In this document: piece after piece, positions 5,760-60,069 of the stretch
Layout: every line of letters begins with the position of its first letter
Position numbering within the stretch: the stretch's first letter is position 1
NCBI GenBank assembly: GCA_036925085.1
Contig: JAUPFP010000041.1
Location: 442,001 to 506,000, forward strand
Direction: 5' to 3'
Origin: Brachycybe producta
Lineage: Eukaryota > Arthropoda > Diplopoda > Playtdesmida > Andrognathidae
DNA length: 64,000 nucleotides
Position numbers and translations under genes: made by a program
The notes under the pieces: generated by a model
What the model saw: the letters and a program-made list of their open reading frames with translations, nothing else
Told to the model about the DNA's origin: nothing
Databases searched by the model: none

Positions 5760-8700
5760 ATTTCTATACCAACAAGGACCCCCACATCTGGTTTCGCCAT
5801 TGTCTACAAGGTCATCTATCATAATAACAGCTGCACGAACCTAATGCAAAATATATAAAAACAATAGAACAAAAATTGTAATCATCTCATCCATTCGTTT
5901 TAAGTTGTGACTTACAAATTCGTAGGCCCATCCTACTACTTGTGAAAGAAACACCTCTTCATCCGACATGCTATTCGGATTCTTGTGCAGTAACTTGTAC
6001 GTGTTGGGGGCCATCAAACCATACATCATTATTTCATTCGGAACAGTGCCCTCCAGTACCTTAAAGCCAAAACGAACGCAACATGAATACCAGTATAAAA
6101 AACATTAATTCTGAGTAAATAAATTTACCTTTTCAAAACGTTGATAAAAACCTTTTAAATCTTCATTACTTGAAGTTAAGGCACTGACAATGCGTGGGAA
6201 GCTTTTCAAAAAACGCTCATTATCAGCTTTTGCAGAGTTCACACTATATCCGGGGATTTTTGCCCTAAAGCCGGAATAGAACAATTACATTTCATTTCCG
6301 CCTCTGCCTCGCATACAATCATAATGTCACGATATAGAATTATTCCGATGAAGGAAGCCATGGTGCAAATAGGTCCAATAGGACAATTCTTTCAATTCTA
6401 GGAGAATTTTTTACAATGTCACCTTCGAAAGAAGCGAAGGTAGCAAATAAAATATATACATATGAGACGTTAAATAGCGAAAAGCATTGCAATTGTAGCC
6501 AATTACAGAAGCGGAACGTAGCGCAAAAAAAGAATTTACAAAAACACTGCTAATTTATCTATTTCTGCATTAATTATTAAAATAAACTATTTCAATTTAA
6601 ATCGTTTCCTTACCATTTGTAAATTATTTTTGTGCGAGTGCTCCATGCCACTCCAATTGCATATGCTTTATACTGTAAGCTACTATTTAACGACCCATTT
6701 GTTTACACATGCAGTTAGAAATAGGAGAGAACTTCAGTTGGCTCCGCTTTTTTATGACGACCGGCAACTTCTAATTGGTTTGTTGTGTGGTTCGACGTTG
6801 ACAAGGGCGGAGCATGTGACGTCAGACTACATAACCAACCAATTAGAAGTTGCCAGTCGTCATAACAATTAGGGCGTAGCCAAATGAAGTTCTCCCCGAT
6901 TTCTAACTGCGTGTCTCAGCAGGGAGACCCCACAGCCCCTGTGTATGTTATGTGAAATTGTTGTAGATGACTGAACTTTGAACTCAATTTACTCAGAACA
7001 TTAATTTGGTCACTCATTCTCATTGGCTTCTAGGCCCACTCAAATGAATTTGTTAGCTAGTACCTAAAATCAGGACAGCCGAGAGTGGGCCAGGGGCAGT
7101 GGGAAAACAATAATTCCGGGCCCGATGACAGAAAAAACTGCTTTAGACACATTCTAACTTCTAGATAGTCTAACTGATACTGTAGATATCAAAAAGAAGT
7201 TGAAGCTAGGAGCTTCATAAGAAAATGAATAGAAAGAAATGGATTTTTAAAATATAAATTAAGAGGCTAGATACATCGTTTAGTTCGAAATTTCTCCGAA
7301 TGTAGGCGCTGCGATCGTTGTTGATTGAAAAACGGTTTTTTAACGTTTTTTCTCCCGGTTCGAAGTCACATAATAATTAATAGAAAAATAATTTCGCGTG
7401 CTAACCTTATAAAAAGAAAACATTGTGAAGCCAGTAGATTAATGCACGTAATAATTATTTTGTTATTGTTCTGAGTTGTTTTTAACGGGAGTTCTTCAAA
7501 TGTTTGGGTGACGGTTTTTTGCTCCTATGGAACTTAACATGGAGTTAAAAAACGTAAGATTTTAAATGTTATTTAAAAATAGAAAGCCCTTTTAAAATTT
7601 AGAAAAAGGAACAATCCTGAAGGCAATAAACACGTGTAAGTACGTGCTAATTTTTCTGATTGCTCTAAATCATTTTTAATGAGAGTTCTCTTAACTTTTG
7701 TTGGACGGTGTTTTAGTCCTATGGGACTTAACATGGAGTTTAAAAACGTACGATTTTAAACGTTATTAAAAAATAGAAGGACCTTTTCAAAATTTATAAA
7801 AAGGAAACATCGTGAAGCCAATACATGAATGTATGTGCTAATTATTTTGTTATTGTTCTAAATCAGTTTTAACGAGAGTTTTTCAAATGTTTGTGGGACG
7901 GTTTTTGATCCTATGGGATTTAACATGTGGTTGAAAAAACGAACGACTTTGAACCTTGTTTAATAATAGAAGGACCTTTTCAAAAATTATATAAATCGAG
8001 CACGTGAAGAACAATACTTTTTATTGCATTTTGCGCTTTATTGTATTTGAATTGAGCGATTGTGAGGCGATTTCTTGCAGTTTTAGTAACACCATATAAG
8101 AACACTCATTTGTCTCGTTGTCGTCTGCTCAAAACAACAAGATGGACGTGGATCTAGGCTCTTAAGATGATTTAAAATAGAAATTAAGATCATCTAAGAC
8201 TTTTATGAGGTGTATTTTACCTGTTAATATTAGTGATAAAAGTAAATACGTAAACAGAGTGTTTAGTCAAATCGGGTTTGGGGTCCGGATCAATACACGC
8301 TGTTAGTACTAGTATTACTACCGTTCTACATATTACAATAACCGACTAACAAATTAAAGAAATTATGTAACAAAATCGCAAATAATACAACACTTACAAC
8401 AATACTATTACTACAATACTCCCTCACTCCCTCCCTCCCTTTGTGCACGAATGTTCTCAGAAACTACACACTCTAAGATTGTGAAAATTAACCAGTATAC
8501 ACATCTTTAGATGGGCTTCTTCGTAAGCTACATTAGAATTTTCAATTTTGTTCCGTTTGCCTGATTTTTGTGAAAAATCATCAAATTTCACCAAAACCCT
8601 TGAACACATAAAGTTGGCAGCCAGGAAAGCGTGCATGATTGCATCATACTTTTGTTCAAATGAATAAATTAACGCACGTGGGTTACAGTGAGGTCACCTT

Positions 8701-14904: not shown

Positions 14905-17900
14905 TTGTAAATGTTCCACGGGGGGTGGGGAGGTCTCAACAGTTAAAAAAGACCCCGGGTAGGGGGTTTGAGAAGCCACCGGTGGCTTCTTAGTTTTGAA
15001 AGGTTCTCAGGTCTCTGCCAGCTTCGAAAGGCCACCTGGGCCATCTCCGTTTCATAATACAATTTTTTTGTTATTACTTATCAAGCTAGGCATATTTAGA
15101 AAATATTCCGCCGCAAATTTAATTCCCAGGCTCCTTTCCGTAAGAGTAAATAAGATGATTTTCGTGTTGTTATTGTTAATAATAAACTTTTTATGAACCA
15201 AACATCGAAAGAAGAAAAAAACATCTTTTGTCTGAAAACTTAAAATTTAATTATTTTCAAACTGACATGGCAATTTTAAAATATTTCAACATAAAAATCT
15301 CCCTCTCCCTTTTAGCTAGCTTTTTAGCTAGGTAAACCCATAGTATTTACGAGCTGCTTCACACGAAACACTGAACGCGACGAAGTGGTCGATGCTCTTC
15401 TCTTTGGTGCAACAAAATAAACCGTGGTCGGTGTTTCACGTGAACACACCCTATGTAATCAATAGCCTGTTAAAAGTGAACACTTTTTTGTGGCAACACA
15501 AAGTGTTCCGTGTGAAGCGGTCCTAATAATTCTACAAATATCAAGAGTCTCACAATGAATTCAGTTCCTTTTCTACAAAGAAATCCAAGCAGTAAGTAAA
15601 GATATTAGGTGGCAACTTGAACGTCGGTGCCGTGATTATGTTCATGATTTCATCGTTTAAACGCTTAGCATGTTTTCTGAAATCATCCTCAAGCTGCAGC
15701 TCAGAAAACAAGTTCCTCACTCTCTGGACACATTCCTTGTCCAATTTGCCATAATTGTCCTAAATATATTTGCACAACAGTTTTATTTTATCATCTTTTT
15801 GGAAGAACCAGACTTACGTTTAAAACTTGTCTTTGTTCACTGTTGCATTTTTCTAGTGCAACGAGCAATGGCCAAGTACATTTGCCGTGACTGGTATCCA
15901 TTGAAGATTTTCCCAGTACAGATATATCACCGAAAACATCAAGATAGTCGTCCTAACAAAAAATACAGAAATGAAAATTTAAAATTTATATTTAAATAAA
16001 GACTGAATAAAGAAATTCATGTAAACGATCGGTTCCATGAACCCTATAAACTGTGATGATATATATACCCTAGCAGAGCGTATACCTTTACCCTTGTATG
16101 CCCCTTCTTGTTCGATCTCGCTTAGTCGTGATCCATTAAAGCCACCACATACGTTCCAGTAAACGTGTGCAGGTCTACCAGAGCTTGTAGATGATAAAAC
16201 TGCATAGTTATTTAAGCCTGCTTTGTCGTCTGATCGACTTGTACAGGCATACTTGACAGGTTTACCAGAACATGTGTGGTGGCCGTAAGTACCATTACAT
16301 ACAGTATGTCATTAAATATAATATATTATATATAATTATTTATATAATTTCTAAAAAAAGCACAACTTGAGAAGAAAGAACTTTGCATAAAAATCATTTA
16401 GAGCTTCACTGCAAGCTTTGTGACTAAAACGTAAAAAGGAAGTAAAGATTATAATCTTACTTTATAATATTGAAACGATAAGTCCAGGAGCGATCCTGGC
16501 TCGCTTGATTTTATCTGGATCGTTTGTTTTTATTTTGGATTGGCATGGAACTTTGTCAACCCTCTGTACAGAGGATTGACCTAGTTCTATCAGCTGACGA
16601 TACCAATATCCTGCCTTGGGTCACCTTTTGGGTCTTGTGTCCTTTTTCCTCCCAGTCCCACCCCTTAATACAAAAAGATCGTCCTGATAAGCAGTAGCAT
16701 TAAGTCAATGGCGTTGCGTTTTTCTTGGAATATAAGTCTTAATTGACGATGAGTCATTTTTCTATATTTTGGTGACCACTGGTCAATCATGTTGTTTGGC
16801 CAGTTTGGTTTTGTCTTTCGTTATTGCCCAATCAGAGAATACTGAGAAAACATTCTCAGTATCCTCTTTTTGGGTATAAAAGGCCATGTATTTTCATGTT
16901 TAGCAAGCACTTTTTGAATTGTTACTCTGACACTGAAATTATGCCCAATTGTGGCCAAATTCTGTATACTGTGGGAATAAATTGTTATGAAGAGTAAAAA
17001 GTTTCTTTATATTTATTGGAAAGAATGAAAGCTCTAACAACGTCATCATCTCAAATTGCCAACCCAGGTGGATCATCACTTCCTGATGAAACTTCAAGGG
17101 AAAACACGATCAACTAGCTTTTAAAGGGCGAAAGCCCGAGGGGTAGCAGACAGCTAAAAGATCCATTTTAACTGTAAAAGTTCAATAAGGAAGAACTTGT
17201 GATTAATCAGAAAGGGATTAATTTGTTCCCTTCCTCCCGAACCAGAATAGAATAAGTGGGTTAGCCAACCGCTTTTTGGTATATTTTATCCCCCACAAAG
17301 GTGGTTCGTTACAATATATTACGAAAGTAATTAATCAAGTTCGTTGAGTAAAGTTCATTGGGTGATATAAATAAAACAGAGCATGTCACTGAACAGCCCC
17401 TGAGCATGAAAAAAAAGAAAATACTATTGCCCCTATAAAGTATTTGGAGCATGTGCATTTGGTTATTTTTATATAATTAATAAATTTTAATTTTTGCTCA
17501 TAATGAAAGATCAAATGCACCGACCATTCTTCATCAGAGCCAGATACAGGCTATTCATACTCTGTGAACTTTGTACTTTCCTATTGAACATTCTTCAAAG
17601 TATGTTAGATTTTGTTCAGTGCTGTAAACAAAACACAAAAAAAGATTATTACTCCAATTCTTATTTATCAGAAAAACGTTTTTATGACAACTGTTGTCAA
17701 TTTGCCCCTTTGTATTGGCATTTGTCAAACTATATGAACCTTGATGCATATTACTCTATAAATTAAATTAAAAAATCAGTCATTTTCTGTGTGTAAAACA
17801 GGTGTCTATAACAAATGATTCTACTCGTAACTCCATTTTATTTGAGTAAGTGCTAACTATTTGGAGAATTTGCTCCATGAGAATTCATGCGGTGATCATT

Positions 17901-19275
17901 GGGCTCAACAGAATTATTTTGTGCTCTGTATTCACACTCAAAAGCAAATGCTCACATTTTATTCATATGACCCATTGAGTTTCAAGTATCAGGGCCTCCA
18001 TAGTTAGTCATTTCTTCAATAGTAACCACAACTTCTTTTAGTACAGACGACAAAGAGTTATACAAGTTAGTCGCGATGTTCCACGAGCTAATAAGACTAT
18101 CATAGACTCCTGAGGTGCTGTTTTAACTCATGAGCACGTTAAGTCGAGTTAAAGCCCCATGGCGTGCACGCCTAGTTTAAGATGCCGACCCCAGCACGCT
18201 TAATCACAAAGTTTCAATATAGAAAAACATTTTTGTGCTATGTTTTTTTTTCCCCATTTTCTCGTAGGACACTAAAATATTTACCCGATCGGTGTACAAC
18301 TGCGCTATAAGCGATGATACATGTTTCACTTGTGAATGTGTACCTGGGTCCATTATTCCATGCTAGAAAAATTGAAAAATACAATTAGCAATGAAGGTCA
18401 CATCATTCATTTAGCACTTTGCTCAAAAACAAATGGAAACCACAAAAGATAACATTCTAGACCTTTTCAGCTTCACCTGAGTTACTATTGTAGTCGCAAG
18501 TATGCCTCAGAAATGCACATAGAAAGTGCTACGAAATTGCAATGAAATTTGCATGAGAAAAAGTTTATGATATTATGTACTTGCTCATTAACCTAAGGCA
18601 GTGCATGGTTTCCAAAGGGTGTGCCGTGAGTTTTACTCAGTGTCCCAGAAATTGTATGTGTTATTGTGGTGAAACTACTTTCTAAATCTCAGTAGGCCTA
18701 TGTAAGGAGTGCAGATTAACCTATCAAATCAGACAGAACGATGATGGCAAGGCGGTGGCACTCAGTTCGAATTTGATTTAATATTTTTGGACTTTGCAGA
18801 GATTTTTTGATATGGTAATGTGACCGCGTCGGTAACTAAAAATATTATTTTGAAATAACGTTTAAATTAATTTTCTGGTTTGAAGTGTGATACAATACCC
18901 GTAACCTGTTTTCTTAGAAATTCATTAAGGTGAGGATAGCTTTATGAACAACAGTCTAATTTATTTTTGGTATTTGGTGACCTGAGGTCACATTACTCAC
19001 TCCCTACTCTCTTTGTTTTCTTTGGTTGTTTATCAATGTGAGCTATTATAGATGGTTACTCAAAGATTATTTGAATTCAAATATTCCTATGACTTATTTA
19101 AACTTAGCAAGCTGATTGGTTTCACAGAATGTCAGTTAGTTTTCAGTTATCATATAGGGCCTCTTTAAAAGAATGAATATTGAACATTTTTAAGAGTTGA
19201 ATCACAAAAATGTAACGATCAGGGCAGTTCCCCTCATAATTGATATCAGGATGGGAAAGAGTACCCAGGAACATA
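14905..19275. repeat. Segmental duplication, TPS2 copy
   Basis: Colinear and highly similar to 45540-54106, including TPS exons 7-9 and introns. Differences are discrete insertions: in TPS4 the Helitron (47736-49684), the 50.0-51.4 kb block, MITEs and a 205-bp hairpin-bearing piece; in TPS2 the block at 16465-17325. A shorter match continues left at 13313-13432 versus 45316-45433. Confidence 0.85.
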
Positions 19276-22200
19276 GCACTCAAAGCATAGGCCTACTTTA
19301 GAATAATTATATCAAAATGTACTTATTATCATGGGCAACCTGCACATTTTGAGTAACAAAGAACTATTAGGTTATTGTCCAAAAATGGTGACAGGCTGTG
19401 TGTAATCTCAGTCGATAAAGATAAAATAAAAATTAATGAAAGTTTTGTTTCTGAAGTAGTTGATAAATTTTCGAGAGAACCACATCGACTAAGACTACTT
19501 TTTAAGGATAAATATACTGGAAATTAATTTTAAAAAAACTTGAACTTCTGCTGTTTTATTTTGCTTTTATGTCTATCTTTTTTTGCTAATTAATTAATAA
19601 AAAAAATATGAATACTTTAAATCAGTTAATTCTGTGAGAGACGCACGTTAGGGACATAATGCTATGGGCCAATAATTTTTTAGTTCATAATAGTAGCTTG
19701 GAAATCGCCCCACCTATGAAATTATCTTGCGGGCGACACTGGTATTTGAAAGGCAAAGACCTATAACTAACTGTGATGAATCTGATGATAATGTTTTTGA
19801 CTGAATGTGACTGTACTTACGTTTTTATTTTATGGTACCTGTGTGTACGACTGAAGACAAGGCTCTAATAAAGAGAAGTGATGCAACTACAATGTTTTGT
19901 GATTCTATTACAACTAAGTTTTTATCAATTAGTGACTCAGGTCACAGTAATGCACTTGCTGCTGATTAGCAAGTTAACACCTTTCAATATGAAGTAATAG
20001 CATGGGTATCATCTTTGTTAACCAGTAGACAGCAGCATGTTCAATTTGATTGTGTTGCCTCAGACTGGGTTAATGTAGCATCTGGTGTTCTATTGTTCAT
20101 AAATGACCCACCCAATGATATTAACAGCTCAATCTGATTGATGATGATGCTGTAATTTATAGAGAAATTAAAAGTTATAGTGATTTTCAAATTCTTCAAT
20201 AAGATCTTAATCTAGTTACAGTTTGAACAACGGTCTAACGAGAATGGTTGATTGCCTTGGAGCCTGCACACCGCAGCTAGCATGACATAAATAGCACCTG
20301 TCTGTGCAAACTCAATTTTCTTTTCATAAATATCTTCATGCCGATTAGTCAAGCATTGGTGGGTTTTTCGATTAGGAGCCACCGTAACCTGTAATCTAAG
20401 GTTTCGGAAGTGTTATTAATTTGTGCCAAAAGCACGAAGAAAAAAAAACTACAAAATCTCCTGCATAGAGGCTAAGCCTCTGCTAATCGAAAGAATAATC
20501 TTCGATGGTAATCAGGTTAAAATATAGTTATATACAGTTACCCATAAATAATTAATAAAAGTATAGTATTGATGTGTGAGACGTACCATTAGCATAGGAA
20601 CGGCTATGGGAGCATACATTGATCCCGAAGTCTTCATCTGAGTCATTCTTGCTTGATTAGCCCAAGTGAAATCCTTCATAGATCTTGTTCTACAAAATTC
20701 TGATCCAATCCGTGTATCCAAAGATTGGCCCACGTGCACATCTCTGCATACCTACAAAAAAAGAATAAATGTCTTAAAAGAACAAGATAAGAATCACAGG
20801 TGTAACTGGAGAAATAATGCAAGTACACATGCAGTTATTATAATCACTCATACCTCATTTAATAATTGAATAAAGGAAAGATAATAAGGCTTATCATGGA
20901 AATGCTTCTTCAGTAGATCAAATATTTTGGTGTACATCCAAACGCCATCTTCAATCGCATGTATTCCTATGTCACTCTGTCAGAAATTGCATAGAAATAT
21001 CATTAGAATGGACTGAGGGCTTACAAAGTGTTTCATATAAACTGAAATCATGAAATAATATGGAACACTTAATAAATGATACAACTTAAAAAAAGGCAAA
21101 AATTAACAACGTCAATTATGGCAATATTAACAAAATGTTAGTTTTAACAATTAAACTTTCAAAATTTGTTCGAAATTAGAAGTCTGTATAGCAGTGTGTG
21201 TGTGTGTATGTTTTTTGATTGCAGTATTCAAACGAGGTTTTGTGAGATATGACCCAACATTTGAATTTGAATAATAACTCTGGCCGGTGGCAGATTACTA
21301 TTTAGTCCAAAAGCAGCATAAAAAAGCATTGTCAAAATAAACAGTTATTCCTTGTGATACCGATCCCCCAATTTAACATAATAAGTTCAATTGCAGCATC
21401 ATTATACTGTATATGCCTTGTTAAATCGCACCAAAAATATTGAATACGACTCATTTCTAATAAAAAACAAAATACAAAAGTTAAATGCAACCACATTGAC
21501 TTAGTGTTACTGCTTATCAGAAAGCTCTCTTTATTTTAAGGGGTGGGACTTGGTAGAAAGGGCCCAGGCCCCAGCGAGGTGTGAACCAAACAAGGATATT
21601 CATACTTTTATAACTTTAAAGGGTTGGGGGTCACTACAGCTACAAAGGCTCACAAGCGCTACTAAGGGGAGAACAGCTACTTGGGTCACTACAGCTACCA
21701 AAAAAATTAATAGACCTTTTGTTCATCAAAAGGGTCACTACAGCTACCAAAAAATAGGGGACAAAATATAGACCTTTTTATCACTTTTTCGTCACTACAG
21801 CTAAAAAAATAACCCTTTCTCCCTAAAATAACCGAACCTTACCTAATAAAACCTTACCAAACCTTACCAAACAGAACCTTTACGATCCTAACCTAAAAAG
21901 TACCGATACTAACCGAACCTAACCAAACCTAACCGATCTTAACCGATCCTAACCAAACCTAACCGATCCTAACCAAACCTAACTGAACCTAACCGATCCT
22001 AACCAAACCTAACCGATCCTAACCGAACCTTACCGAACATAATGAAACCTAACTGAACCGAATGTAATCTAAACTAAACATATTGCTAAATAAAAAGGCC
22101 TATATTTTTTGGTAGCTGTAGTGACCCTCGGTAGCTGTAGTGACCCTTTTGATGAAATAAAGGTCTATATTTTCTTTTTGGTAGCTGTAGTGACCCTGGT

Positions 22201-24886
22201 AGCTGTAGTGAGCCTAGTAGCTGTAGTGACCCAGTTAGCTGTAGTGAGCCAGTCCCCTTTAAAGGGCGAAATCAGTTGTGTGAAACTAGACAGATGACAA
22301 AGTTCCACACAACTCCACAAAAAAAACGAGCCAGGATCACTCTTGGACTGATCGTTTCAATATGACCACGGCGTTCTATAGTAACGAGGCTTACGGGCAG
22401 CCTTCGTATTCTATCAAACATGGAGATAAAATTGTGTTTTTCGAAATTTACAATGTTGTTGTTTGTGTGACTCGTGAAAAGCCACTTCATTTTTTTTTAA
22501 CTATTTTATGATTTTAAGCACTTAATTTTTATTTTAAAAATCGATGGGTAAGTCTTGACAATATTTTAAATAGAAACTTCTGCAAGGAATGGTCTCTTTT
22601 AGGTGGTATGCAGCCTGGTTCAAAACATTATTCCTTTAAGGCATCTCAAACAATAAAAAAAACTAGAATGAAAATTTAAAAGAATGATGTTATTGAATAA
22701 CAACACCAAAACTAAAAATTATTACTAAATTAGTAAGCTGCATTCAGTTTTTCTTACTCAATTTTTTCTCTTCAATTGTAGTCTACGTATTCTTTAAATT
22801 TTCTAATACAAGAATGAGAAATTTCGACATGCATGTTGCTACCAAAATATAATACACTTAAGAGTTGTTGAAACTTCCTATAGCTGCCTCTTGTAACTTA
22901 CATGTGCCCAAATATAGCAGATTCTACTGCCAATGTGTGTTAAGAGAGATCCATTTCCGAACACTTGTGTGGACTTCTGAATATGTTAATTAGGGCCTTG
23001 CAGGCCCGGACTGGGCCACAGGGAAATGGGGAATTTCCCGGTGCGCCCCCCCCCATCAAAATACATGTACAAGTGATTGAATTTTTTTAAATTTTGCAAC
23101 TCATGGCACGACAATTACTTGGAATAGGTAATAAATTATTTTGGCAGAACAAATGTTTACCAAATATTAAAATGAGCGCCCCTAATTGTAAATTTCAGGT
23201 AAAAACAACAAATTTGCAATTATTTTCAATGCACCATTGCACATTTCAAATTTGGATTTTAATATTCAAATCCTCAAATGCAGTGGGCAAATGATGAAAC
23301 TTTTAATGCAAGGAACCAAATGCATGCAAGGGGTCATGCAGAACATGTCTAACATGATGCTACAACATTTTATACAGGTTCTCATTGAATGCTGCTGGTT
23401 ATTCCAATCTTTTCCAGGCATATGAGTATTTGCTAACCTTATCTTTTTCACAAGTATCATGTGAAAGAGCTTTCAGCAAACTGAAATTAGTAAAAATACA
23501 ATTTAGATGTTTGATGACAAATGAAAAATTGGAAACTTTTATGCTTATGTGCAGTGAAAAAGATATTGTTGATTTAATTAGTATTGATGACATTGCCCAT
23601 ATTCTTGCTAAAGATTCCTCGGTGTATGCTAGAATGCTTTGTATGTAATTTTGTTTAATAAGTTATCAGTGCTGTAAAGTTTTTGTAAATATATTACTAT
23701 AAATGACTTAGTCATTTATATTGCCTTTAGTCATTATGACTAAAGGCAATTATTAGTTGTGGTATTTGTAATAATTTTTCTAATAAACATTCACGTTACA
23801 TGAGCACGATACAATACAAGTGGCATGATTTAAGATACGGTAGATACCCTATATCACCCTACACAGCAGTGACATGTATGTTTTACAAATGTTTATGCCG
23901 TTAGAAGCCCAGTCCGGGCCTGGGGCCTTGGCACACAGAACACTTTTGGTAGTCAATTTCGATTGCAAAATGTTATAACAGGTATCTGGGCTGTGGGTGC
24001 AGTGAATTACTATGAAAAGAATCTAGACCTTGGCACACAAGCAACAACTTGACTTTTTTTTGCAGTCAAAATCAACCACAAAATGTGGTCTGTATGCAAG
24101 GGTCTTAGATAACAAGACATTTTGATGACATTTTTAATGTCGTTTGTTTCCTAGAACCCCCTTTTGAGCTACTCCTGAATAGCCAAATAAAATCACGCCT
24201 CAAGCTATATGAAAAATTGATTCCTGTAGAACGAAACTAAAAAAAGCCAAAGAAATGCAATCTCAAGAGGGCACAATATAGAACTTAATCTTTTCACCAA
24301 ATTATAATGCAGCTTTTCTTCAACAGAAATAATTATCTGTTTTTGAATTTGCAAAACCAACCAGAATGAAAACCTACATTTTTGTGCCAGCATGGCTTCC
24401 CATATCTTTCTTCACTATCGTCAATGATATCATCCACGAGATTGAAAAATGCACGCAGCTAAAAAAAAAACATAGTATTCATTTTATTTAAATTCAAAAT
24501 TTTACTTTTTTTTTGTTACGCAGTTTTGTATTTACAATTTCAAAAGACCATCCAACCATATGCGCTGTAAACATTTCCTCCTCAGAAATTTGCTGTGGAT
24601 TTTGATGAAGTGCTTTATACGTATTTACGGCTATCAAACCATGAAGCAATATTCCACATGGAACATTGCTTTCGAGCACCTGAAAAGAAATGAATAAGAA
24701 CTTGTTAAAAAAAGGCAATAATAATAATTATTTGTTAAAGTTACATTTCGAAAATGCTGAAAATAAACTTTGAAACCATCGTCGTTGCTGTCAGTCAAAT
24801 CATGAACTACGCGTGGAAAGCTTTTTAGAAACTGTACATTGTCATACGTAGCATCAATGGTCAGCGGAAGCCCGGTGTTTCTTATA
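15550..24886 (-). CDS. FPPS-like (IDS-type) terpene synthase candidate TPS2, exons 2-9
   Basis: Exons (minus): 24886-24745, 24679-24536, 24458-24378, 20976-20854, 20751-20587, 18362-18285, 15952-15818, 15759-15550 (stop TGA). All have AG acceptors and GT donors and keep frame: 358 codons. Exon 2 starts in phase 2, so a first exon is required; none like those of TPS1/TPS3 was found upstream. Exon 4 has AFFNLVDDIIDD, the first Asp-rich motif after the chain-length Phe-Phe pair. Exon 6 has HVGQSLD and QMKTSG. Exon 8 starts with DDYLDVFGD, then VLGKSS and GKCTW, the second Asp motif and its following lysines. FPPS residues for isopentenyl diphosphate are changed: Lys to Ile and Arg to His in CGILLHG, Gln to Arg in LRAFF, second Arg to Tyr in ERYG. 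Expected to bind Mg and an allylic diphosphate. Introns hold LINE, hAT and MITE insertions. Confidence 0.85.
16465..17325 (+). mobile_element. Insertion with LTR-like promoter in TPS2 intron 8
   Basis: Missing from the paralogous TPS4 intron. It contains GGGTATAAAAGGCCATG (16874-) and GGGAATAAATTG downstream, the arrangement of an LTR promoter and polyadenylation signal, and ends with a hairpin-like AAGGGCGAAAGCCC. It lacks the long palindrome of family P. Ends are approximate. Confidence 0.4.
19955..20235 (+). mobile_element. LINE reverse transcriptase fragment in TPS2 intron 6
   Basis: Frame pieces read SSLLTSRQQHVQFD, ASDWVNVASGV, LLFINDPPNDINSS and DDDAVIYREIKSY, matching in order the RT palm region of CR1/Jockey-like LINEs (the PQGS block is lost; the FADD-like block survives as DDDAV). 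Frameshifts and stops show it is a fossil. Confidence 0.7.
21622..22256. mobile_element. MITE family Q, copy 1, with 8-bp target duplication
   Basis: Flanked by CTTTAAAG at 21614-21621 and 22257-22264. Ends are GGTTGGGGGTCACTACAG and, inverted, GGGACTGGCTCACTACAG. Inside, CACTACAGCTACC recurs on the left and its complement on the right, around a core of about 10-bp units such as CCTAACCGAA/CCTAACCGAT. The 8-bp duplication suggests a hAT-type transposase supplied in trans. No protein. Confidence 0.8.
23001..23922 (+). mobile_element. hAT element, internally deleted, with dimerisation-domain ORF
   Basis: Termini CAGGCCCGGACTGGGC and GCCCAGTCCGGGCCTG are perfect inverted repeats, with 8-bp target duplication GGGCCTTG on both sides (22993-23000, 23923-23930). 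TPS3 has a similar unoccupied site near 37788. The remnant ORF around 23385-23648 includes SQVSCERAFSKLKLVK and LMLCSEKDIV-like sequence, the C-terminal hAT dimerisation domain. Catalytic parts are deleted, so it is non-autonomous. Confidence 0.85.
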
Positions 24887-34756: not shown

Positions 34757-37700
34757 CTATGAATTCAATTCCTTCTCTATAAAAAAATCCAAGCCATAAG
34801 TAAAGATGCTAGGAGGCAACTTGAACGTTGGTGCCATGATTATGCTCATAATTTTATCTTTTGAACGCTTACTATGTTTTCTGAATTCATCCTCAATCCG
34901 CAGTTCAAAATACAAGTTCCTGACTCTCTCGATACATTCCTTGTCCGGTATGCCATAATTGTCCTAAATATATTTGTACAAAAGTTTTATTTTATCATAT
35001 TTTTGGAAGAACCACACTTGCCTTTAAAAGCTGTCTTTGTTCACTGTTGCATTTGTCAAGTGCAACAAGCACTGGCCAACTGCATTTGCCTTGACCGATA
35101 TCTATTTTAATTTTGCCCACTATGGGTCTATGACCGAAAACATCAAGATAGTCGTCCTAACAACAACAAAAAACAGAAATGTAAATTTTAAATTTATATT
35201 TAAATAAAGACTGAATAAAGAAATTCATGTAAACGATCGATTCCAAACAATATCAATAACTATCTGCGTCTTAAACCCTTTAAACTGTGGTGATACACAT
35301 ACCGTTACCCCCAGCAGAGGTCATTTCCATGTACAATCATGCACCCTTCTCGTTTCTTGTGCTATTTAATCCTGATCCATTACATATGTCATTATGCAAA
35401 TTAGATTTCTAGCAAAAGTTCCCACTCCCTTTTTGATTTTAATGGTTGCTCAGGCTGGGTAATGAGCCAGTGCCACAGTTTTGGTGGAAAAAAAGTTTTC
35501 TTTTGTTTTTGTATCTCGTCTAGCCACAAAGCTCACAATGAAGCTCTGCGTAATATTTTCTCAAAGTGTGCTTTTGTTCAGAAATTATAACAAAAATTAT
35601 AATTACCGCTAATGATTTCTTTTCCTTGTAAGATCAGCTTGTGTGACAAGTTAGTGGGGTAACCGTTCATTGGGTGGTATGAATAAAACCGAGCATGCCC
35701 CTGAGCAGCCCTGAACATGATTAAAAAAAATCCATTGCCCCTATATAGTGCTTGGAGCATGAGCATTTTGGTTATTTTTATATGATTAATAAATCTGAAT
35801 TTTTGCTCAAAAAATAAAGATCAAATGCTCAGATAATTTAACTGCCGATGCAGACACAGGCTATTTATACTCTGTAAACTTTGTACTTTTCTATTAAGCA
35901 TTCTGAAAGCACTGTAGTATGTTAGATTTTATTCAGTGCTGTAATGTAAACAAATAACACAGAAAAAAGATCATTACTCCAATTCCTATTTATCAGAAAA
36001 ATGGTTTTTATGACAACTATACGAACCTCGATGCATCTTACTCTATAAATTAAATTAAAAAATGTGTCATTTTCTGTATGTGAAACTGGTGTCTTATAAA
36101 AATTGTTGCTACTCCTGACTCCATTTTGTATGAGTAAGTACTCACTATTTGGATAATTTGCTCCACTTTTTGCATGCGGTGACCATTGGGCTCAACAGAA
36201 TTATTCTTTGCTCTGTGTTCACACTCTCCAGCAAATGCTCACTTTTTATTCATATGACCCATTCAGTTTCAAGTATCAGGACCTCAATGGTAAGTCATTA
36301 TTCAAAAGTAACCACAACTTCTCACATCCCAGTCTACAAAGATGTCGCGATGTTCCACAAGCTTATAGACTCATGGAACGCAGTCTTAAATCATGAGCCC
36401 GTTCAGTCAAATTAAAGCTCCATGGCGTGCACGCCCAGTTTAAGATAACGGACCCCACGCACCCCCCAACACAGGGTTCTATTTGCTCTTAGGACATTTA
36501 AATATTATTTACCCGGTCGATGAACAACTGCGATAAAAGAATCGAAACATGTCTTGCTTGTGAATGTGCAACTGGGTCCGTTATTCCATGCTAGAAAAAT
36601 CCAAAATACGATTTAGCAATGAAGGTCACATCATTCATTTAGCATTTCAAACAAAAACAAATGAAAACCACAAAACATAAAAACATTCTTGATCTTTTCA
36701 GCAATTTTTAGCTTCGCCTGAGTTACAATTACAGTCGCAAGTGGGCCTCGGAAGTGCACATAGAAAGTGCTACGAAATTGCAATGAAATTTGCATGAGAA
36801 AAAGTTTATGATATTATACGTTTGCTCATTAACCTAAGGCAGTGCATGGTTTTCAAGGGGTGTGCCGTGAGTTTTACTCAGTGTCCCAGAAGTTTTAGCC
36901 TCTAATCTATGGTCTTGGAAGTGTTACATACTTTGCGCCAAAGGCGAAAAGCTACAAAATCTCTTGCGTAGAGGCTAAGTGGCTGCTAATCAAAAGAATA
37001 ACCTTCGATGTTAATAAGGTTGGAATATAAGCTTGAATATATAATAAAAGTATAGTATAATGATGTGAGACCTACCATTAGCATACACATTATCACAGGA
37101 CCATACATTGTTCCCCCTGTCTTCAGCCTACTCATTTTTACATAATTAGCCCAAGTGAAATCATCCATCGATCTTGTTCTACGTAATTTTGATGACATCA
37201 GTGCATCGAAACTTTGGCCCACGTGTGTATCCCTGCATATCTACAAAAATAGAATATCAGCTTTGTCACTGGAGATATAATACATGTACACGTATAAAGT
37301 TTTTACAATCACACATACCTCATTCATTAATTCAATAAGAGAAAGATAATAAGGTTTATCATGAAAATACTTCTTCAGTATATCAAATATTTTGGTATAC
37401 ATCAAAATACCATCGTCAATTGCATGCATTTTTACTTCACTCTGTCAGAAATTAAATAGAAATACCATTATAATAGAAAGCTAATCACAAATGATTCGAG
37501 GCCTTAAAATGTATCTAGTATCAACTGAAAACATAAAATATTATGATACACTTCTTACATGATATAATTTAACAAAAGGCAACAAAGTAACAACGTGAAA
37601 AAAACATAAAAAAAATGTTATTTAAACTTTCAAAATGTGTTTGAAATTAGAAGCCTATATAGCAGTATGTGCACAAATACATCAGATTCTACTGCCAAAG

Positions 37701-40700
37701 TGTGTTCAGAAAAAAGGAGCAATAAAGGGAATAGGGCAATATGCATTAGGGCAAATTAGGGCGGGTTTCTGAACATGTTCCTAAGGGCATTGGCACACTG
37801 ACCGCTATTGGTATTCGACTTCAACTGCAAAACGTTATAAGTGGTGTCTGGGTTGTGGTTGCAATGTATTGCTATAGAAAAAGAAACCCGGACCTTAGCA
37901 CACAAACGACAACTAGCTTGATTTCATTGTGCAGTCGAAATCATCCATAAAATGTGGCCTGTGTGACGAGGGCTTTAGATAACAAGACATTTTTAATATC
38001 GTTTGTTTCCTACAGCCTTTTTACGCTACTACTGAATAGTCACGTAAAATCATGCCGCAGGCCAAATGGAAAATTGATTGTCCTAAAAAAAAAACTAAAA
38101 AAGCCAACGAAATACTTGTGAATGCATATTCATGATGGCACAATATACTGTAGAACTTATCTTTTCGCCAAATTATAAAGTGCGACTTTTTTTTTCAAAA
38201 ATAACAGAAATAATTATCTGTTTTTGAATTTGCAAAACCAACCAGAATGAAAACCTACATTTTTATGCCAGCTTGGCTTCCCATATCTTTCTTCACAATC
38301 GTCAACGATATCATCCACGATATTTAAAAATGCACGCAGCTATAAAAAAAACATAATATTCATTTTATTATTTAAATTCATAATTTTACTTTTTGCACTG
38401 CAGTTTTGTATTTACAATTTCAAAAGACCATCCACCCATATGCACTGGAATCATTTCTTCCTCTGAAATGAGCTGTGGATTTTGATGAAGTGCTTTATAT
38501 GTATTTATGGCTAACAAACCATGAACGAATATTCCGCACGGAAGAGTGTTTTCGACCGCCTGAAAAGAAATATGAACAACCACTAGTAAAAAAAAACCAG
38601 AAAGATATTAACTTGTTAAAGTTACATTTGTAAAATGCTGAATAGAATGTGCGAAACCGTCATCGTCACTTATAGTCAAATCATGAACTACACGTGGAAA
38701 GTTTTTCATAAACTGTACATTGTCCTCTGAAGCGCCAGTGGTGAGAGGAACTCCGGTGTTAATTACACTTAAAATAAAAATCGAATAACATGAAATATAC
38801 TTTCGGTATGATCCCTTAAAAGTTAGACTAGTGGACAAATCTTTCCATTTTAATATCAAATTCGTTTAACACTAAAAAAATACTTCAGTCCCTTCTATTA
38901 CAGTATTATGTCTTAACTGTTTTCCACTGTATATGGAGGAATTGTTATTAACAACTTGATACCATAACGTGAGGTCTTTTATCACATTACCACATATTTA
39001 AAAATTAAAAATAAAAACTATAGGCCTACACGTTTGTTAGATAGCTTAACTTCCAATGTGGTAAAGGGCACAGCAATGAACATGCCAAGTATGCTCAAAT
39101 CTCACAATCTCATGTCTGATAACCAACATGGTTTTCTGAGAGGGCGCTCTTGTGACACTCAACTTATCCTGGTAGTGGATGACCTCCAGAAAAGCTTAGA
39201 CAATGGTAAACAGGTTGACATGGTGTTTCTTGACTTTTGTAAGTCATTTGACACTGTTTCACATTCAAAACTTCTGGGGGGGGCAGGTAACCAAATGGGT
39301 AACTTATTTTTTAAGTGATTGGAAACAAAGGGTAGTTGTAAATGGAGTCTGCAGTCCAGTGATATTTATAAAGCACTATATATGGGCAGGGCTGACCACT
39401 CTAAGAAAATTAGGGAGATTTTTGCTAGGACAGATTCATATTATTGGTCTTTTTTTTCCTAGAGTTATAAGACAATGGAACTCTCTTCCTGAGGCAGTGG
39501 TGAATGGGGATAATTTTGTTTTGTGGGATTGACATTTGTATATTCATTTTGTTTTTATATATGTGCTTGACAATGCTTAATGCTGCATGTGGACTCTTAT
39601 GTCCCTCTGCCATAGGTCTATTTGGCTGCTAGCAGAGTACTAGTTGTAATTGTAATCGTAATTAAATGACCGACGTATAATATTGCATAAAGTCGACATT
39701 TTGGTGATTGTGTTTAAACGAAGATAGAAAATAATAACTCGTACCCCTTTATATACTTACCCATATTTTACTGATAACAAGATAGCAACAATGCATATAC
39801 AGTAATTTAACAAATTTTCACATAACAATTCTAATAAACTCGAAAAGTAAAAAAAAAAAAACGAAACACGTGTGAGAAAAAATAACATTTTCATTAAATT
39901 TTGCTAAAATGGAAACTGAAAACTTCTATTTAATTTTGACCTTTAAGAAAGTAATACAATCTTAACATTCTTTTCTTTTTTTTTTTTTTGTTGAAAGGAA
40001 TTTTATTACATTCAGTGTTTAGTGTAAAACCTAGTACACACCTGATAATTTAATTGCATTTAAATAATAAACGTGTTCTACAGAGCCCTCTGAAGGGAAA
40101 ACAAACAATATATCGAATTCAATTTATTCAGTTAATAATCTGAAAACATTGAGTGAATACTTAAATATAAAATATATAAACTATTGACAAAATATTGATT
40201 TAGTATTTCAACTTAAAATATATTAATAATAAAGTTAAGTTTTATTTGGGATCATGTCCATGTTCATGTTCATGTTCTGGATTCCGTATAATTCACCTAA
40301 ACACATTTAATTTCAATTCATTTAAGTCATGTGTGTACAAGGTATTATAGCACCCTTTTCCATTAAACCCGCTTAAGAGCCTAGATATTTAGTAGATATT
40401 TAACGTTTTTTCTCCAGGTTTGAAGTCACATAATAATTAATAGAAAAATAAGTTCACGTGCTAATCTTATAAAAAGGAAACATCGTGAAGCCAATAGATT
40501 AATGCACGTGCTAATTATTATGTAATTGTTCTAAGTCGTTTTAATGGGAGTTCTTCAAATGTTTGGGTGACGGTTTTTTGGTTGTATGGGACTTAACATG
40601 GAGTTAAAAAACGATCGATTTTGAACCTTGTTTAAAAATAGAAGGACCTTTTCAATAATTATATAAATCAAACATGCAAAGAACAATACTCTTTATTGCA

Positions 40701-46919: not shown

Positions 46920-49900
46920 TCACAATGATTTCAGTTCCTTTTCTAAAAAGAAATCCAAGCAGTAAGTAAAGATATTAGGTGGCAACTTGAACGTCGGTGC
47001 CGTGATTATGTTCACGATTTCATCGTTTAAACGCTTAGAATGTTTTCTGAAATCATCCTCAAGCTGCAGCTCAGAAAACAAGTTCATCACTCTCTGGACA
47101 CATTCCTTGTCCAATTTGCCATAATTGTCCTAAATATATTTGCACAACAGTTTTATTTTATCATCTTTTTGGAAGAACCAGACTTACCTTTAAAATTTGT
47201 CTTTGTTCACTGTTGCATTTTTCTAGTGCAACGAGCAATGGCCAAGTACATTTGCCGTGACAGGTATCCATTGAAGATTTTCCCAGTACAGATATATCAC
47301 CGAAAACATCAAGATAGTCGTCCTAACAAAAAAATACAGAAATGAAAATTTAAAATTTATATTTAAATAAAGACTGAATAAAGAAATCCATGTAAACGAT
47401 CGGTTCCATGAACCCTATAAACTGTGATGATCCCTTGGATCCCTGTACCCTTGTATGCCCCTTCTTGTTCAATCTCGCTCTATTCAGTCGGGATCCATTA
47501 AGGCCGCCACACATGTTACGGTAAACGTGTGCGGTAAACCCGCACAGGCACGCCTGTGCAGGTCTACCGAGCTTGTAAATGATAAAACCGCGTAGTTATT
47601 TTAGCCTGCTTTGTCGTCTGATCGACCTGCACAGGCATACTTGACAGGTTTACCAGAACATGTGTGGTGGCCGTAAGTACCATTACATACAGTATGTCAT
47701 TAAATATAATATATTATATATAATTATTTATATAATCTAATATCATAATTTGCTAAAGGCTGACTCCCTCCCTCCATTTGTGCACGAGTGTTCTCAGAAA
47801 CTACACACTCTAAAATCGTGAAAATTAACCAGTATACACATCTTTAGAAGGGCTTCTTCATAGGCTACATTAGAATTGTCAATTTTATTCCGTTTACCTG
47901 ATTTTTGTGAAAAACCATCAAATTTCACCACACGGGCCCTTGAACACATAAAGTTGGCAGCCAGGAAAGCTTGCATGATTGCATCATACTTTTGTTCAAT
48001 GAATAAATTAACCCACGTGGGTTACAGTGAGGTCACCTTTGAGTCCTGGCTGTAGTTTTTGTGTATTCATTTTTTTTTTTTTTTCATTTTGCTCAATCTG
48101 AGATACTGCACAGTTTGTTTCATAAAGGGAGCCTCCTATATTATAATCTTTCTGCTATACAGAAATTTTTTTCTTAAAAAGGTAAAAATTTAGAGAATTA
48201 AAAACTGGAAAATGGCCGTTTCATAATTATAAATGAACTAATGAACTTTTCACTTTTATTAATTATTGTGAAAAAATAACATGCTCAACACAACAGTTAC
48301 ATTAAGATTAATAAAGTACACGACTGTCCTGATGTATTATAATATGTTTTCTACATACTTTAAACAATATTTATATGCAAATTTACAGAAACTCTGCCCT
48401 GAAGCTGCTAAAATGGCACTTTTTAGTTCTGCGGTTGTAGTATAATAATGGCTATCTGCTTAATCATTACGTACGATGATGTTTCAAAAGGTCTCTGTAG
48501 GATTTAAGTCTGGGGGAAACGTCGGCCGTTTCAGAGTGGTGATATTTTCGTTTCGTAATGATTCATTTCTTAGGTTACCAGAGCGAACTGTGCATTTTCT
48601 TGCTCAAATACTAAGCTAACACTAGGGAATCGACTTCAATGGTCAGTTAGTAAACACTCTCATAACGTTGTCTAATAATAAACATTATTTTTTTGGTTGA
48701 AATGAAGGTAAAGCTACTCATTGCAAGGGCACTAAATACTTCGCATATTGTTTAGACCAAAAGGGAAAAAAATTCAATCTTGATGATCTTGACAGTTTCT
48801 TTTTTTCTTCATATTAGAAGGATGTGATGAAAAAACCACAATATTATTTATTCTAAACAACATTTTGGCAGTGGGTGAGCCTAATGATAAGGGAAACATT
48901 TAGTGGATTCGAACGAGCAGCTTAAGTTTCTGAAATGCATACCTTAGGAATTATTTCAATCAAAACAAATACCATTGATCATCACACAATGTTAGGAGGG
49001 TATGTACTGCCATAAAACATCGACTCCCTAGCATTAGCTTATTATTCCAGCAAGAAAGTGCACCAGTTTGCTCCAGTAACCTAACGAAGGAATTGTTACG
49101 AAACCAAAATATCACCACTGTCAAATAGTCGACGTGTTCCCCCAACTTAAATCCTATCGAGGACATTTGGGACATCGTCTTACAGGATTATTAAGTAGAT
49201 TGCTATGATTATAATACATTAGCAGAGCTCAAAAGTGCCATTTTTAGCAGTTTAGTTGCTTCAGGGTAAAATGTCTGTAAATTTTCTTAAAAATATTGGT
49301 TAAAGTATGTAGAAAAGAAAGTTTTAAGTTATAAAACATCAGGACAGTCGTATACTTTATTAATTTTAATGTTACCATTGTGTTCAGCATGTTATTTTGT
49401 CACAATACTTAATAAAAGTGAAAAGTTCATTAGCACATCTATTTATTATTATAAAATGGACATTTTCCAGTTTATTTTTTTTAATTGTTACCTTTATAAG
49501 AAAAAATGTTCTGCCTAGCAGAAAATTTATAATATAAGATACTCTCTTTATGTTGAAAATAACAGTTGTAACTTGAGTTATAACCAATTTCTGGGGTGTT
49601 TATATATTTAAATATGAAACGCACTGTGTAAGGCTATCAGAGCATTGCACTATCACACCCCTCGAAGACGGGCTTTCCTTTTAGTTTCTAAAAAAAGCAC
49701 AACTTGAGAAGAAAGAACTTTGCATTATATGAGTGGAAACTTTTGCTAGAAAACTTTCTAGCAAAAGTTTCCACTCCCTTTATAATCTTACTTTATAATC
49801 TTTACTTCCTTTTTACGTTCTAGCCACAAAGCTTGCAGTAAAGCTCTACGCGATTTTTATGCAAAGTTCTTCTCAAGTTGTGGTTTTTTTTTAGAAATTA

Positions 49901-52887
49901 TATAAATAATTATAATTAGTAATTAATCAAGTTCGTTCAGTAAAGTTCATTGGGTGATATGAATAAAACAGAGCATGCCACTGAACAGCCCCTGAGCACG
50001 AGAAAAACAAGGGATTCAAGGAACCCTATAGACCTCCATTGCTTTAATATATGCTTTCATATATCAAATAACCAACTTTTTTTCATTGTGCGCATGTGTA
50101 CGCACATGTACACACGTGTGCGCATGTGTACGCACATGTACACACGTGTGCGCATGTGTACGCACATGTACACACGTGTGCGCATGTGTACGCACATGTA
50201 CACACGTGTGCGCATGTGTACGCACATGTACACACGTGTGCGCATGTGTACGCACATGTACACACGTGTGCGCATGTGTACGCACATGTACACACGTGTG
50301 CGCATGTGTACGCACATGTACACACGTGTGCGCATGTGTACGCACATGTACACACGTGTGCGCATGTGTACGCACATGTACACACGTGTGCGCATGTGTA
50401 CGCACATGTACACACGTGTGCGCATGTGTACGCACATGTACACACGTGTGCGCATGTGTACGCACATGTACACACGTGTGCGCATGTGTACGCACATGTA
50501 CACACGTGTGCGCATGTGTACGCACATGTACACACGTGTGCGCATGTGTACGCACATGTACACACGTGTGCGCATGTGTACGCACATGTACACACGTGTG
50601 CGCATGTGTACGCACATGTACACACGTGTGCGCATGTGTACGTACATGTACACACGTGTGCGCATGTGTACGCACATGTACACACGTGTGTGCATATGTA
50701 TATAGATAATCACACATGTATGTACTCATGTACATGACATAGTTACATGTGATGCGCATGCGTCATTCATTTGTAATAATATGGGTTTAAAATGAAAATA
50801 CGTCACATGTATTCTAATATACAAAAATAATAACAGAACATAAAAAGGAACACCCCTCCTAAATAAAAGAAAAGTCCCCCCTTTCGAATGCTACAACTGG
50901 AAAGAGGAAGAATCTCGATTTTTTGAAAAGAAAATTACGTTTTTAAAAAATTGAAATTTTATATATCGAATCGCTCTAAAATTCCAATTTTTTTCCAGTT
51001 TCATCGTCAGAATGTTTACATCATTTTAAGTCTGATGACATTTTATTGTAGGTGGCCCTGTTTTCGAGTTGTTCGACCCACTAAAAATTATGACCAAAAA
51101 CTCAAAATTTGTTTCTAAAAAATTCATAAAAAAATAACCCCTGGGTAAAATTTTCTAATTTTTTGTCAGGAGCTTCATATTGACCCACGGAATCAAATAA
51201 AAAATACTGCATGTCTTTATCTCATTCCGTTCTTGAGTTGTTCGAGGAACTAAATCGGGTTCCGGACACACATACACACACACAGACACACACACAGACA
51301 CACACACATTCTTTTTTTCCCCTTTTCTTGCATGATCCTATATACCTCCATTGCTCTTTAGAGCAATGGAGGTCAAAAAAAGAAATACTATTGCCCCTAT
51401 GAAGTATTTGGAGCATGTGCATTTGGTTATTTTTATATAATTAATAAATTTTAATTTTTGCTCATAATGAAAGATCAAATGCTCCGACCATTCCTCATCA
51501 GAGCCAGATACAGGCTATTCATACGCTGTGAACTTTGTACTTTCCTATTGAGCATTCTTCAAAGTATGTTAGATTTTGTTCAGTGCTGCAAACAATTAAA
51601 ACACAAAAAAAGATTATTACTCCAATTGTTATTTATCAGAAAAACGTTTTTATGACAACTGTTGTTAATTTGCCTCTTTGTATTGGCATTTGTCAAACTA
51701 TATGAACCTTGATGTATATTACTCTATAAATTAAATTAAAAAATCAGTCATTTTGGTTGGGGGTCACTACAGCTACCAAGGCTCACAAGCGCTACTAAGG
51801 GGAGAACAGCTACTTGGGTCACTACAGCTACCAAAAAAATTAATAGACCTTTTGTTCATCAAAAGGGTCACTACAGCTACCAAAAAATAGGGGGACAAAA
51901 TATAGACCTTTTTTTATCACTTTTTCGTCACTACAGCTAAAAAAATAACCCTTTCTCCCTAAAATAACGGAACCTTACCTAATAAAACCTTACCGAACCT
52001 TACCTAACCGAACCTTAACGATCCTAACCAAAAAGTACCGATACTAACCGATACTAACCGAACCTAACCGATCCTAACCAAACCTAACTGAACCCAACCG
52101 ATCCTAACCAAACCTAACCGATCATAACCGAACCTTACTGAACATAATAAAACCTAACTGAACCGAATGTAATCTAAACTAAACATATTGATAAATAAAC
52201 AGGCCTATATTTTTTGGTAGCTGTAGTGACCCTCGGTAGCTGTAGTGACCCTTTTGATGAAATAAAGGTCTATATTTTCTTTTTGGTAGCTGTAGTGACC
52301 CTGGTAGCTGTAGTGAGCCTAGTAGCTGTAGTGACCCAGTTAGCTGTAGTGAGCCAGTCCCGTCATTTTCTGTATGTAAAACAGGTGTCTTATAACAATT
52401 GATTCTACTCCTAACTCCAATTTGTTTGAGTAAGTGCTAACTATTTGGATTATTTGCTCCATGAGAATTCATGCGGTGATCATTGGGCTCAACAGAATTA
52501 TTTTTTGCTCTGTGTTCACACTCACAAGCAAATGCTCACATTTTATTCATGTGATCCATTGAGTTTCAAGTATCAGGGCCTCCATAGTTAGTCATTTCTT
52601 CAATAGTAACCACAACTTCTTTTAGTCCAGACGACAAAGAGTTATACAAGTTAATCGCGATGTTCCACACGCTAATAAGACTATCGTAGACTCCTGAGAT
52701 GCAGTTTTAACTCATGAGCACGTTAAGTCGAGTTAAAGCCCCATGGCGTGCACGCCTAGTTTAAGATGCTAACCCCAGCAACACCCAATCAAAAGGTTTC
52801 AATATTTACCCGATCGGTGTACAACTGCGCTATAAGCGACGATAAATGTTTCACTTGTGAATGTGTATCTGGGTCCGTTATTCCATG
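46920..52887 (-). CDS. FPPS-like (IDS-type) terpene synthase candidate TPS4, exons 7-9 only
   Basis: Exons (minus): 52887-52810, 47322-47188, 47129-46920 (stop TGA), equivalent to TPS2 exons 7-9 and differing by few residues: HGITDPDTHSQ for HGIMDPGTHSQ in exon 7, DTCHGKC for DTSHGKC in exon 8, and five changes in exon 9. The second Asp motif DDYLDVFGD and the GKSS and GKCTW lysines are intact. Splice sites are normal. The expected exon 6 should lie about 2 kb further right, but homology to TPS2 ends at 54106 in a transposon stack. Exons 1-6 are therefore absent from the window: either displaced beyond 64 kb or lost. Intron 7 is enlarged by a Helitron, a 30-bp satellite block and a MITE. Confidence 0.75.
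47736..49684 (+). mobile_element. Non-autonomous Helitron, copy 2, exact ends
   Basis: The TPS2 paralogue has the empty site TATATAA/TTTCTAAAA at 16341-16354. Here the element TCTAATATC...CCTTTTAG sits exactly between the A and the T, with no target duplication. That is the Helitron rule: 5' TC, 3' hairpin then (C/T)TAG, insertion at A-T. It carries a Tc1-like element at about 48120-49570. No Rep/helicase. Confidence 0.8.
48120..49570 (+). mobile_element. Degenerate Tc1/mariner-like element, copy 2
   Basis: Same long-inverted-repeat element as at 9139-10464. Transposase remnants include LLFQQESAPVC-like sequence near 49040 and SPNLNPIEDIWDIV near 49140-49180, the latter better kept than in copy 1. 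Inactive. Confidence 0.7.
49686..49905. mobile_element. Foldback element with perfect 22-bp central hairpin
   Basis: Outer arms CACAACTTGAGAAGAAAGAA and its complement near 49870 enclose an inner perfect inverted repeat: GAGTGGAAACTTTTGCTAG at 49730 and its complement ending near 49777. Half of it is present at 16350-16460, and a decayed relative near 35405-35590. Confidence 0.65.
50013..51372. mobile_element. Insertion of unknown type carrying a satellite block
   Basis: Absent at the matching place in TPS2 (about 17412). Bounded by direct repeats around ACCTCCATTGCT (50031, 51349). The right end has a perfect 14-bp-arm hairpin, ACCTCCATTGCTCT and its complement. Contains the 30-bp satellite, an AT-rich middle, and a CA/GACA microsatellite at 51267-51309. 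Confidence 0.55.
50087..50697. repeat. 30-bp satellite, about 20 copies, strictly alternating pyrimidine-purine
   Basis: The unit (for example TGTGCGCATGTGTACGCACA then TGTACACACG) repeats about 20 times with almost no variation (one base differs at 50643). Every step alternates Y-R across the whole array, the pattern that favours left-handed Z-DNA. It contains no stop in any frame, so long ORFs appear in all six frames; these are not genes. Confidence 0.95.
51755..52361. mobile_element. MITE family Q, copy 2
   Basis: Target duplication GTCATTTT at 51747-51754 and 52362-52369. TPS2 has the intact single-copy site (AGTCATTTTCTGTG near 17778), confirming insertion after the duplication. Same ends and core as copy 1. 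Confidence 0.85.
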
Positions 52888-60036: not shown

Positions 60037-60069
60037 ATTGGGTGCCGTGAAAATAAAACAATAGCCATC

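Follow-up and report, generated by a model that had tools for sequence, protein, structure and literature searches.

The 64,000-nucleotide window analysed here (C41:442001-506000, from an assembly of 295.3 Mb in 442 contigs) carries on its minus strand four genes, g1 to g4, of the farnesyl diphosphate synthase (FPPS) family, which belong to a longer tandem array and three of which, g2, g3 and g4, are candidate terpene synthases. A tblastn search of the window with human FPPS gave E-values down to 6.7e-15, and the joined exons of g2 encode 357 residues that match the Pfam family PF00348 with an E-value of 2.2e-49. The best solved relative of g2 is the isoprenyl diphosphate synthase (IDS) 8a7r, which we take to be a Phaedon protein (E-value 1.8e-56). 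The in-window exons of all four copies are open with their splice sites in phase, and the introns between exons 2 and 9 lie between codons (phase 0) and have GT-AG boundaries, the exceptions in the window being a GC donor at exon 8 of g3 and an off-consensus donor, GTTCGT, at exon 4 of g1. The tandem FPPS-derived cluster described in the initial annotation is therefore real, and its limits were placed exactly, with position 5760 at the end of g1 exon 4 and position 52887 at the start of g4 exon 7, while the array itself extends beyond them.

In both g2 (24886-15550) and g3 (38767-34757) the reading frame runs uninterrupted from exon 2 up to the stop codon, and the encoded proteins are 68% identical to each other, the identity of g2 to three FPPSs being 29-33%. 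In g2, exon 2 (24745..24886) is followed by exon 3 (24536..24679), where CGILLHG replaces the FPPS motif GGKxxRG, exon 4 (24378..24458), with LRAFF, the first Asp motif DDIID and RYG, exon 5 (20854..20976), exon 6 (20587..20751), with the Lys and Thr of K200-T201, exon 7 (18285..18362), where LYTDR replaces FFQIQ, exon 8 (15818..15952), with the second Asp motif DDYLD, K257 and K266, and exon 9 with the stop codon (15550..15759). The corresponding exons of g3 are found at 38626..38767, 38416..38559 (CGIFVHG), 38259..38339 (first motif DDIVD, RYG), 37319..37441, 37076..37240, 36513..36590 (LFIDR replacing FFQIQ), 35022..35156 (DDYLD and the GC donor) and 34757..34963 (with the stop codon). Of g4, the window holds exons 7 (52810..52887), 8 (47188..47322, with DDYLD) and 9 with the stop codon (46920..47129), and exons 2-6 lie outside it at C41:507764-510440. 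Exons 2, 3 and 4 of g1 lie at 6129..6264, 5916..6059 (NEIMMYG replacing GGKxxRG) and 5760..5840 (first motif DDLVD, RCG), respectively. Comparison of the regions upstream of g1-g3, alignment of the upstream blocks of g2 and g3 and a scan for an ATG with a donor in the needed phase gave no convincing candidate for exon 1. The upstream regions of g2 (25600-26000) and g3 (39640-40060) do share a conserved non-coding block with the motif TATATAAAG, which may represent a common promoter.

Mapping from the sequence on either side of the window and from exon searches shows a single array, all on the minus strand, at about 340-554 kb of C41, through which the window cuts. At its downstream end stands F0, a gene whose FPPS residues are canonical; the rest comprises nine copies open in exons 2-9 (T2-T5 and g2-g6) and three broken ones (T1, T6 and g1), and the order from downstream to upstream is F0, T1, T2, T3, T4, T5, T6, g1, g2, g3, g4, g5, g6. 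F0 lies at 340.4-346 kb; T1, between F0 and T2, comprises exons 8-9 only and contains a stop; the open copies of the T subfamily, T2-T5, occupy C41:363221-424674; T6, between T5 and g1, has exons 3-4 only and has lost an acceptor; and g5 and g6 lie upstream of g4, with g6 reaching 554.3 kb. Over exons 3-4, g1 and T5 are identical (no difference in 225 bases), and the stretch between g1 and T6, the next fragment downstream, yielded no exons 5-9; g1 therefore most likely arose by truncated duplication of a T-type gene. GC donors recur at the same exon across copies, namely at exon 8 of g3, g5 and g6, exon 2 of T2 and T3, and exon 6 of T2, T3 and T4.

A genome-wide search listed 31 exon matches to PF00348. 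Two tandem FPPS genes are present on contig C80 (about 4.4-8.7 kb and 20.5-24.3 kb), and they, like F0, have all seven tabulated positions of the isopentenyl diphosphate (IPP) site and all tabulated catalytic positions, so that the separate canonical FPPS which the initial annotation wished to see elsewhere in the genome exists, as judged by residues, in three copies; splice sites were checked in five F0 exons, the models of the remaining F0 exons and of the C80 genes being assembled by eye from open frames. An intron directly before DDYLD is apparently common to F0 and the array, whereas the C80 genes are without it (FQIQDDFLD is contiguous). With three canonical-residue genes in the genome, the array copies are free of a housekeeping role. 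A diverged FPPS-like gene (HLYRG, RSG, NDMAD) is located at C1:18139000-18160500, with a fragment at 17.21 Mb of the same contig, and we read the PF00348 matches on C28, C7 and C24 as likely decaprenyl diphosphate synthase subunits and geranylgeranyl diphosphate synthase (GGPPS).

The array copies depart from FPPS above all in the IPP site. Apart from K57, R60, Q96 and R113, which the initial annotation had named, positions are assigned to IPP contacts by analogy with human FPPS. In an alignment with 82 FPPS homologues, many from Drosophila and hence not independent, and counting in each column the homologues with a letter, the canonical residues K57, R60, Q96 and R113 occur in 78/78, 78/78, 75/80 and 82/82, respectively. 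In g1, g2 and g3 they are replaced as originally reported, K57 by Ile, R60 by His or Tyr, Q96 by Arg and R113 by Tyr or Cys. Q240 (81/81) is lost in g2-g4; Y204 (80/81) is lost in g2 and g3 and the C-terminal Arg (79/80) is Lys in g2-g4, both of these columns being beside a gap and more dependent on the alignment. All nine open copies have K57, R60, Q96, R113 and Q240 replaced, and the FPPS signature of GKxxRG, Q96, RRG and FQ before DDxxD is replaced throughout g2-g6 and T2-T5. Scored on the seven tabulated positions rather than on the published 15-residue list, one is kept in g2, g4 and g6, two in g3 and g5, none in T2-T5 and seven in the three canonical genes. Further changes are the deletion of one residue after K200-T201 in all nine open copies, Gly in place of Y204 in the g copies, and the rebuilding of the g-copy FFQIQ segment before the second Asp motif as LYTDR, LFIDR or LYNDR. 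T5 and g1 have Ala-Val at positions 98-99, presumably the floor that sets chain length, where in the canonical genes of this genome a Phe precedes another Phe, a Tyr or a Leu.

The ionisation site, in contrast, is kept in the g subfamily. D103, D104, D107 and R112 are retained in g1-g3, and K200, T201, D243, D244, D247, K257, D261 and K266 also in g2 and g3; across g2-g6, all tabulated metal- and diphosphate-binding residues (R112, K200, K257 and K266 included) and both Asp motifs (5/5; DDIID or DDIVD, and DDYLD) are present. The initial annotation had credited four copies with both motifs and the Lys that follows, which holds for g2, g3 and g4 and fails for g1, a copy in which no exons 5-9 were found and whose exons 3-4 are identical to those of T5, with NDVWD as its second motif. 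Of the two motifs, the window itself contains just the first for g1 and just the second for g4.

As to descent, g2 alone as a query found one protein, a canonical FPPS with 30% identity, and a profile built from g2, g3 and three FPPSs recovered 82 FPPS-like proteins with E-values up to 1e-20, none above 38% identity to g2, although the absence of closer relatives is weak evidence, the search needing common five-residue words. A tree was built from 44 proteins, 12 of them encoded in this genome and the others being human FPPS, 8a7r and 30 homologues drawn from the 82; the 49 other homologues and three long ones used in an earlier tree were left out. It unites the nine array copies (support 100/100) and places the array, F0 and the C80 genes in one clade (100/99), apart from the 27 insect and unnamed FPPSs, which themselves group with weak support (83/32). 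The FPPS-like gene of C1, when added as a partial sequence with a long branch, joins the array (96/88). The grouping of F0 with the array is not rejected by the approximately unbiased (AU) test (p 0.118), and either F0 or the C80 genes may be nearest to the array. In trees without the FPPS genes of this genome the array is unplaced on a long branch, and in one of them a clade with the insects (AU p 0.092) and a clade with lepidopteran FPPS-like proteins (p 0.236) were both left unrejected. The common clade indicates that, as far as the sampled sequences show, the IPP site was lost after FPPS duplication in this lineage, and since the FPPSs with which the array clusters are those of its own genome rather than the insect ones sampled, a separate origin is probable; the tree contains no characterised insect terpene synthase, so that independence from these enzymes is judged by the close link between the array and the FPPS genes beside it in the same genome.

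The ratio of nonsynonymous to synonymous substitution rates (dN/dS) over exons 3-9 is 0.22-0.34 in the 20 pairs of a T with a g copy, 0.28-0.61 in the six T pairs and 0.44-0.76 in the ten g pairs, and for g2 and g3 over exons 2-9 it is 0.63 (bootstrap 0.43-0.91, 300 resamples). Selection is thus purifying between the subfamilies and weaker among recent copies. Simulated unconstrained drift of 0.125 changes per site from the present sequences left g2 free of stops in 0.65% and g3 in 1.1% of 2000 runs each.

We read the locus as a lineage-specific tandem array of FPPS-derived genes. Its g subfamily, of which g2, g3 and g4 fall within the window and g5 and g6 next to it, most likely codes for IDS-type terpene synthases, a reading to which we give a probability of about 0.62. 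Terpene synthase function would be likely for g2, g3, g5 and g6 and possible for g4; it is doubtful in the T type and would not be expected of g1. The four window copies are thus not equal candidates as first proposed, g1 being truncated and of T type. The canonical enzymes would supply an allylic substrate (geranyl, farnesyl or geranylgeranyl diphosphate), from which Mg2+ coordinated by the two Asp motifs could still remove the diphosphate despite the loss of the IPP site. The resulting cation would then be cyclised or quenched into a terpene in a remodelled pocket (Y204 to Gly and the deletion after K200-T201 in the g copies; F98/F99 to Ala/Val in T5 and g1). The role of such products is probably chemical signalling or defence.

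The literature offers close parallels. Substitutions in the IPP-binding motifs are a published mark of insect terpene synthases (PMC10962984; PMC12376265), as the initial annotation had assumed, and these enzymes have arisen repeatedly, with 3 of 15 IPP residues kept in LlTPS and 4 of 15 in PsTPS1 (PMC10962984). Like the insect IDS-type terpene synthases (PsTPS1 of Phyllotreta striolata, LlTPS and LlTPS2 of Lutzomyia longipalpis and those of stink bugs), the g copies descend from an IDS, as the PF00348 match of g2 and the clade with the genome's own FPPS genes indicate, and they combine both Asp motifs with a disrupted IPP site and a separate canonical FPPS; in stink bugs the FPPS-like genes are likewise tandemly duplicated (PMC13143122). 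They differ in that the array groups with the FPPS genes of its own genome. With the canonical FPPSs (human, 8a7r, C80 and F0) the g copies share the Pfam family, the Asp motifs and R112, K200, K257 and K266, whereas the array copies have other residues in place of GKxxRG, Q96, R113 and the FQIQ segment. Class I terpene synthases of plants and microbes have terpene synthase Pfam domains and a DDxxD together with an NSE/DTE motif, whereas g2, the one copy scanned, matched PF00348 only and the g copies carry DDYLD; T5, with NDVWD, shows only a faint resemblance. The termite GGPPS-like terpene synthases are also an independent arthropod recruitment of a duplicated IDS gene, but one derived from GGPPS and not from FPPS (PMC13143122), and unusual terpenes are described from springtails (PMC11321324). 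A literature search of partial coverage, from which no absence from print is claimed, found no paper describing the array; such enzymes are already known in several insect orders, and the array is probably an independent further case.

A number of observations weigh against this interpretation or narrow it. In T2-T5 the first Asp of the second motif is gone (GDVLD in T2 and T4, GDVLE in T3, NDVWD in T5) and K200 is Asn, with T201 further lost in T3 and T5 and K266 in T2 and T4; T2-T5 do not have both Asp motifs, and g1 and T6 show the first only. The changes in the second motif and at K200 make terpene synthase function less plausible for the T copies, the type to which g1 belongs. In the g copies, the rebuilt FQIQ segment and the deletion after K200-T201 could impair catalysis as well as retune it. 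In exons 7-9, g2 and g4 differ at 12 bases, and 11 amino-acid changes result (dN 0.034, dS 0.012), a pattern compatible with neutral drift or diversification, so that the youngest copies may evolve without constraint. The exon 2 acceptor of g4 reads AT instead of AG, for which reason g4 may be defective, and together with the broken T1, T6 and g1 this makes decay part of the picture. Finally, LlTPS2, which lacks the IPP site and is active in vitro, is reported not to be transcribed (PMC12376265).

Among other explanations, the array could encode FPPS-like proteins that have neither terpene synthase nor prenyl transferase activity and are kept as pseudo-enzymes or binding proteins for some other role, a serious though rather improbable alternative. 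One report describes a blattodean FPPS-like protein, EneoA, without IDS or terpene synthase activity, from a clade that is likewise a diverged tandem FPPS duplicate (PMC13143122), and the altered second motif and lost K200 of the T subfamily would agree with such a fate. However, the inactive blattodean proteins have both Asp motifs disrupted (PMC13143122), whereas g2-g6 keep both along with every tabulated diphosphate-binding Lys and Arg; T2-T5, disrupted in the second motif only, are closer to them. An ionisation site retained without the IPP phosphate clamps would also suit any nucleophile other than IPP, so that the copies might be prenyl transferases with a changed acceptor, as in irregular coupling or the prenylation of small molecules; this appears unlikely, the characterised insect cases with this signature being, in the accessible literature, terpene synthases.

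That the array consists mostly of decaying tandem duplicates without function appears very unlikely, even though T1 with its stop, T6 and the truncated g1, the transposon insertions, the lost exon 2 acceptor of g4 and the higher dN/dS among recent copies point that way, since nine copies remain open in exons 2-9, dN/dS between the subfamilies is low and simulated drift seldom leaves g2 or g3 free of stops. Hardly any weight can be given to ordinary FPPSs that supply the cell: family membership would allow it, but every one of the nine open copies has its IPP residues replaced, and with three canonical-residue genes in the same genome the array was rejected as the cell's FPPS supply.

Beyond the terpene synthase reading of the g copies, a more far-reaching and tentative version would divide the array of at least nine copies in two. 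The g copies would be Mg2+-dependent terpene synthases with an intact metal site, and the T copies, which lack K200 and have their second metal motif rewired to N/G-D-V-x-D/E, would use another ionisation chemistry or substrate or act as non-catalytic partners. Such an array would be an independent one, in an arthropod outside the insect orders with described FPPS-derived terpene synthases and perhaps outside the winged insects.

The telomere repeat (TTAGG)n occurs in arthropods (PMC8977481), and (TTAGG)6 has 7679 overlapping exact matches in this genome, which indicates an arthropod. A single weak match to DIOX_N was of no diagnostic value. An exon-wise search for odorant receptors, which is soft evidence, gave eight matches, all weak (best 32 bits), and their paucity hints against a winged insect.

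The remainder of the window is rich in mobile elements, named here by our own reading (RTE-like, LINE, hAT). A gypsy-like element is present on the plus strand in two copies (1001-5007 and 58147-64000) with matched blocks 87-92% alike; it has gag and protease frames, including an open gag frame of 629 residues (58147-60036), followed by a long open reading frame without a Pfam match, 614 residues at 62159-64000, that runs off the window. An RTE-like LINE lies in several frames at 28277-30853, an endonuclease-bearing LINE fragment at 2-1231 and the end of a hAT transposase at 23358-23648. A search with the LINE open reading frame found one related protein (29% identity), and no relatives of the gypsy gag or of the RTE-like reverse transcriptase piece were found in genome_contigs and viral_contigs. 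The intron between exons 7 and 8 of g4 contains a 30-bp tandem repeat (50087-50700; 20.5 copies, 99% matches) that is open in all six frames, and scans of the window with Rfam at the gathering threshold and for tRNAs gave no matches.

The array appears to be a further, separate case of an animal deriving terpene synthases from FPPS. A possible starting point is still in place, F0 standing at the end of the array with canonical residues and the common extra intron, and the route from a chain-elongating enzyme to a terpene synthase can therefore be tested gene by gene at one locus. If the g copies are active, the animal would make its own terpenes rather than take them from food or microbes.
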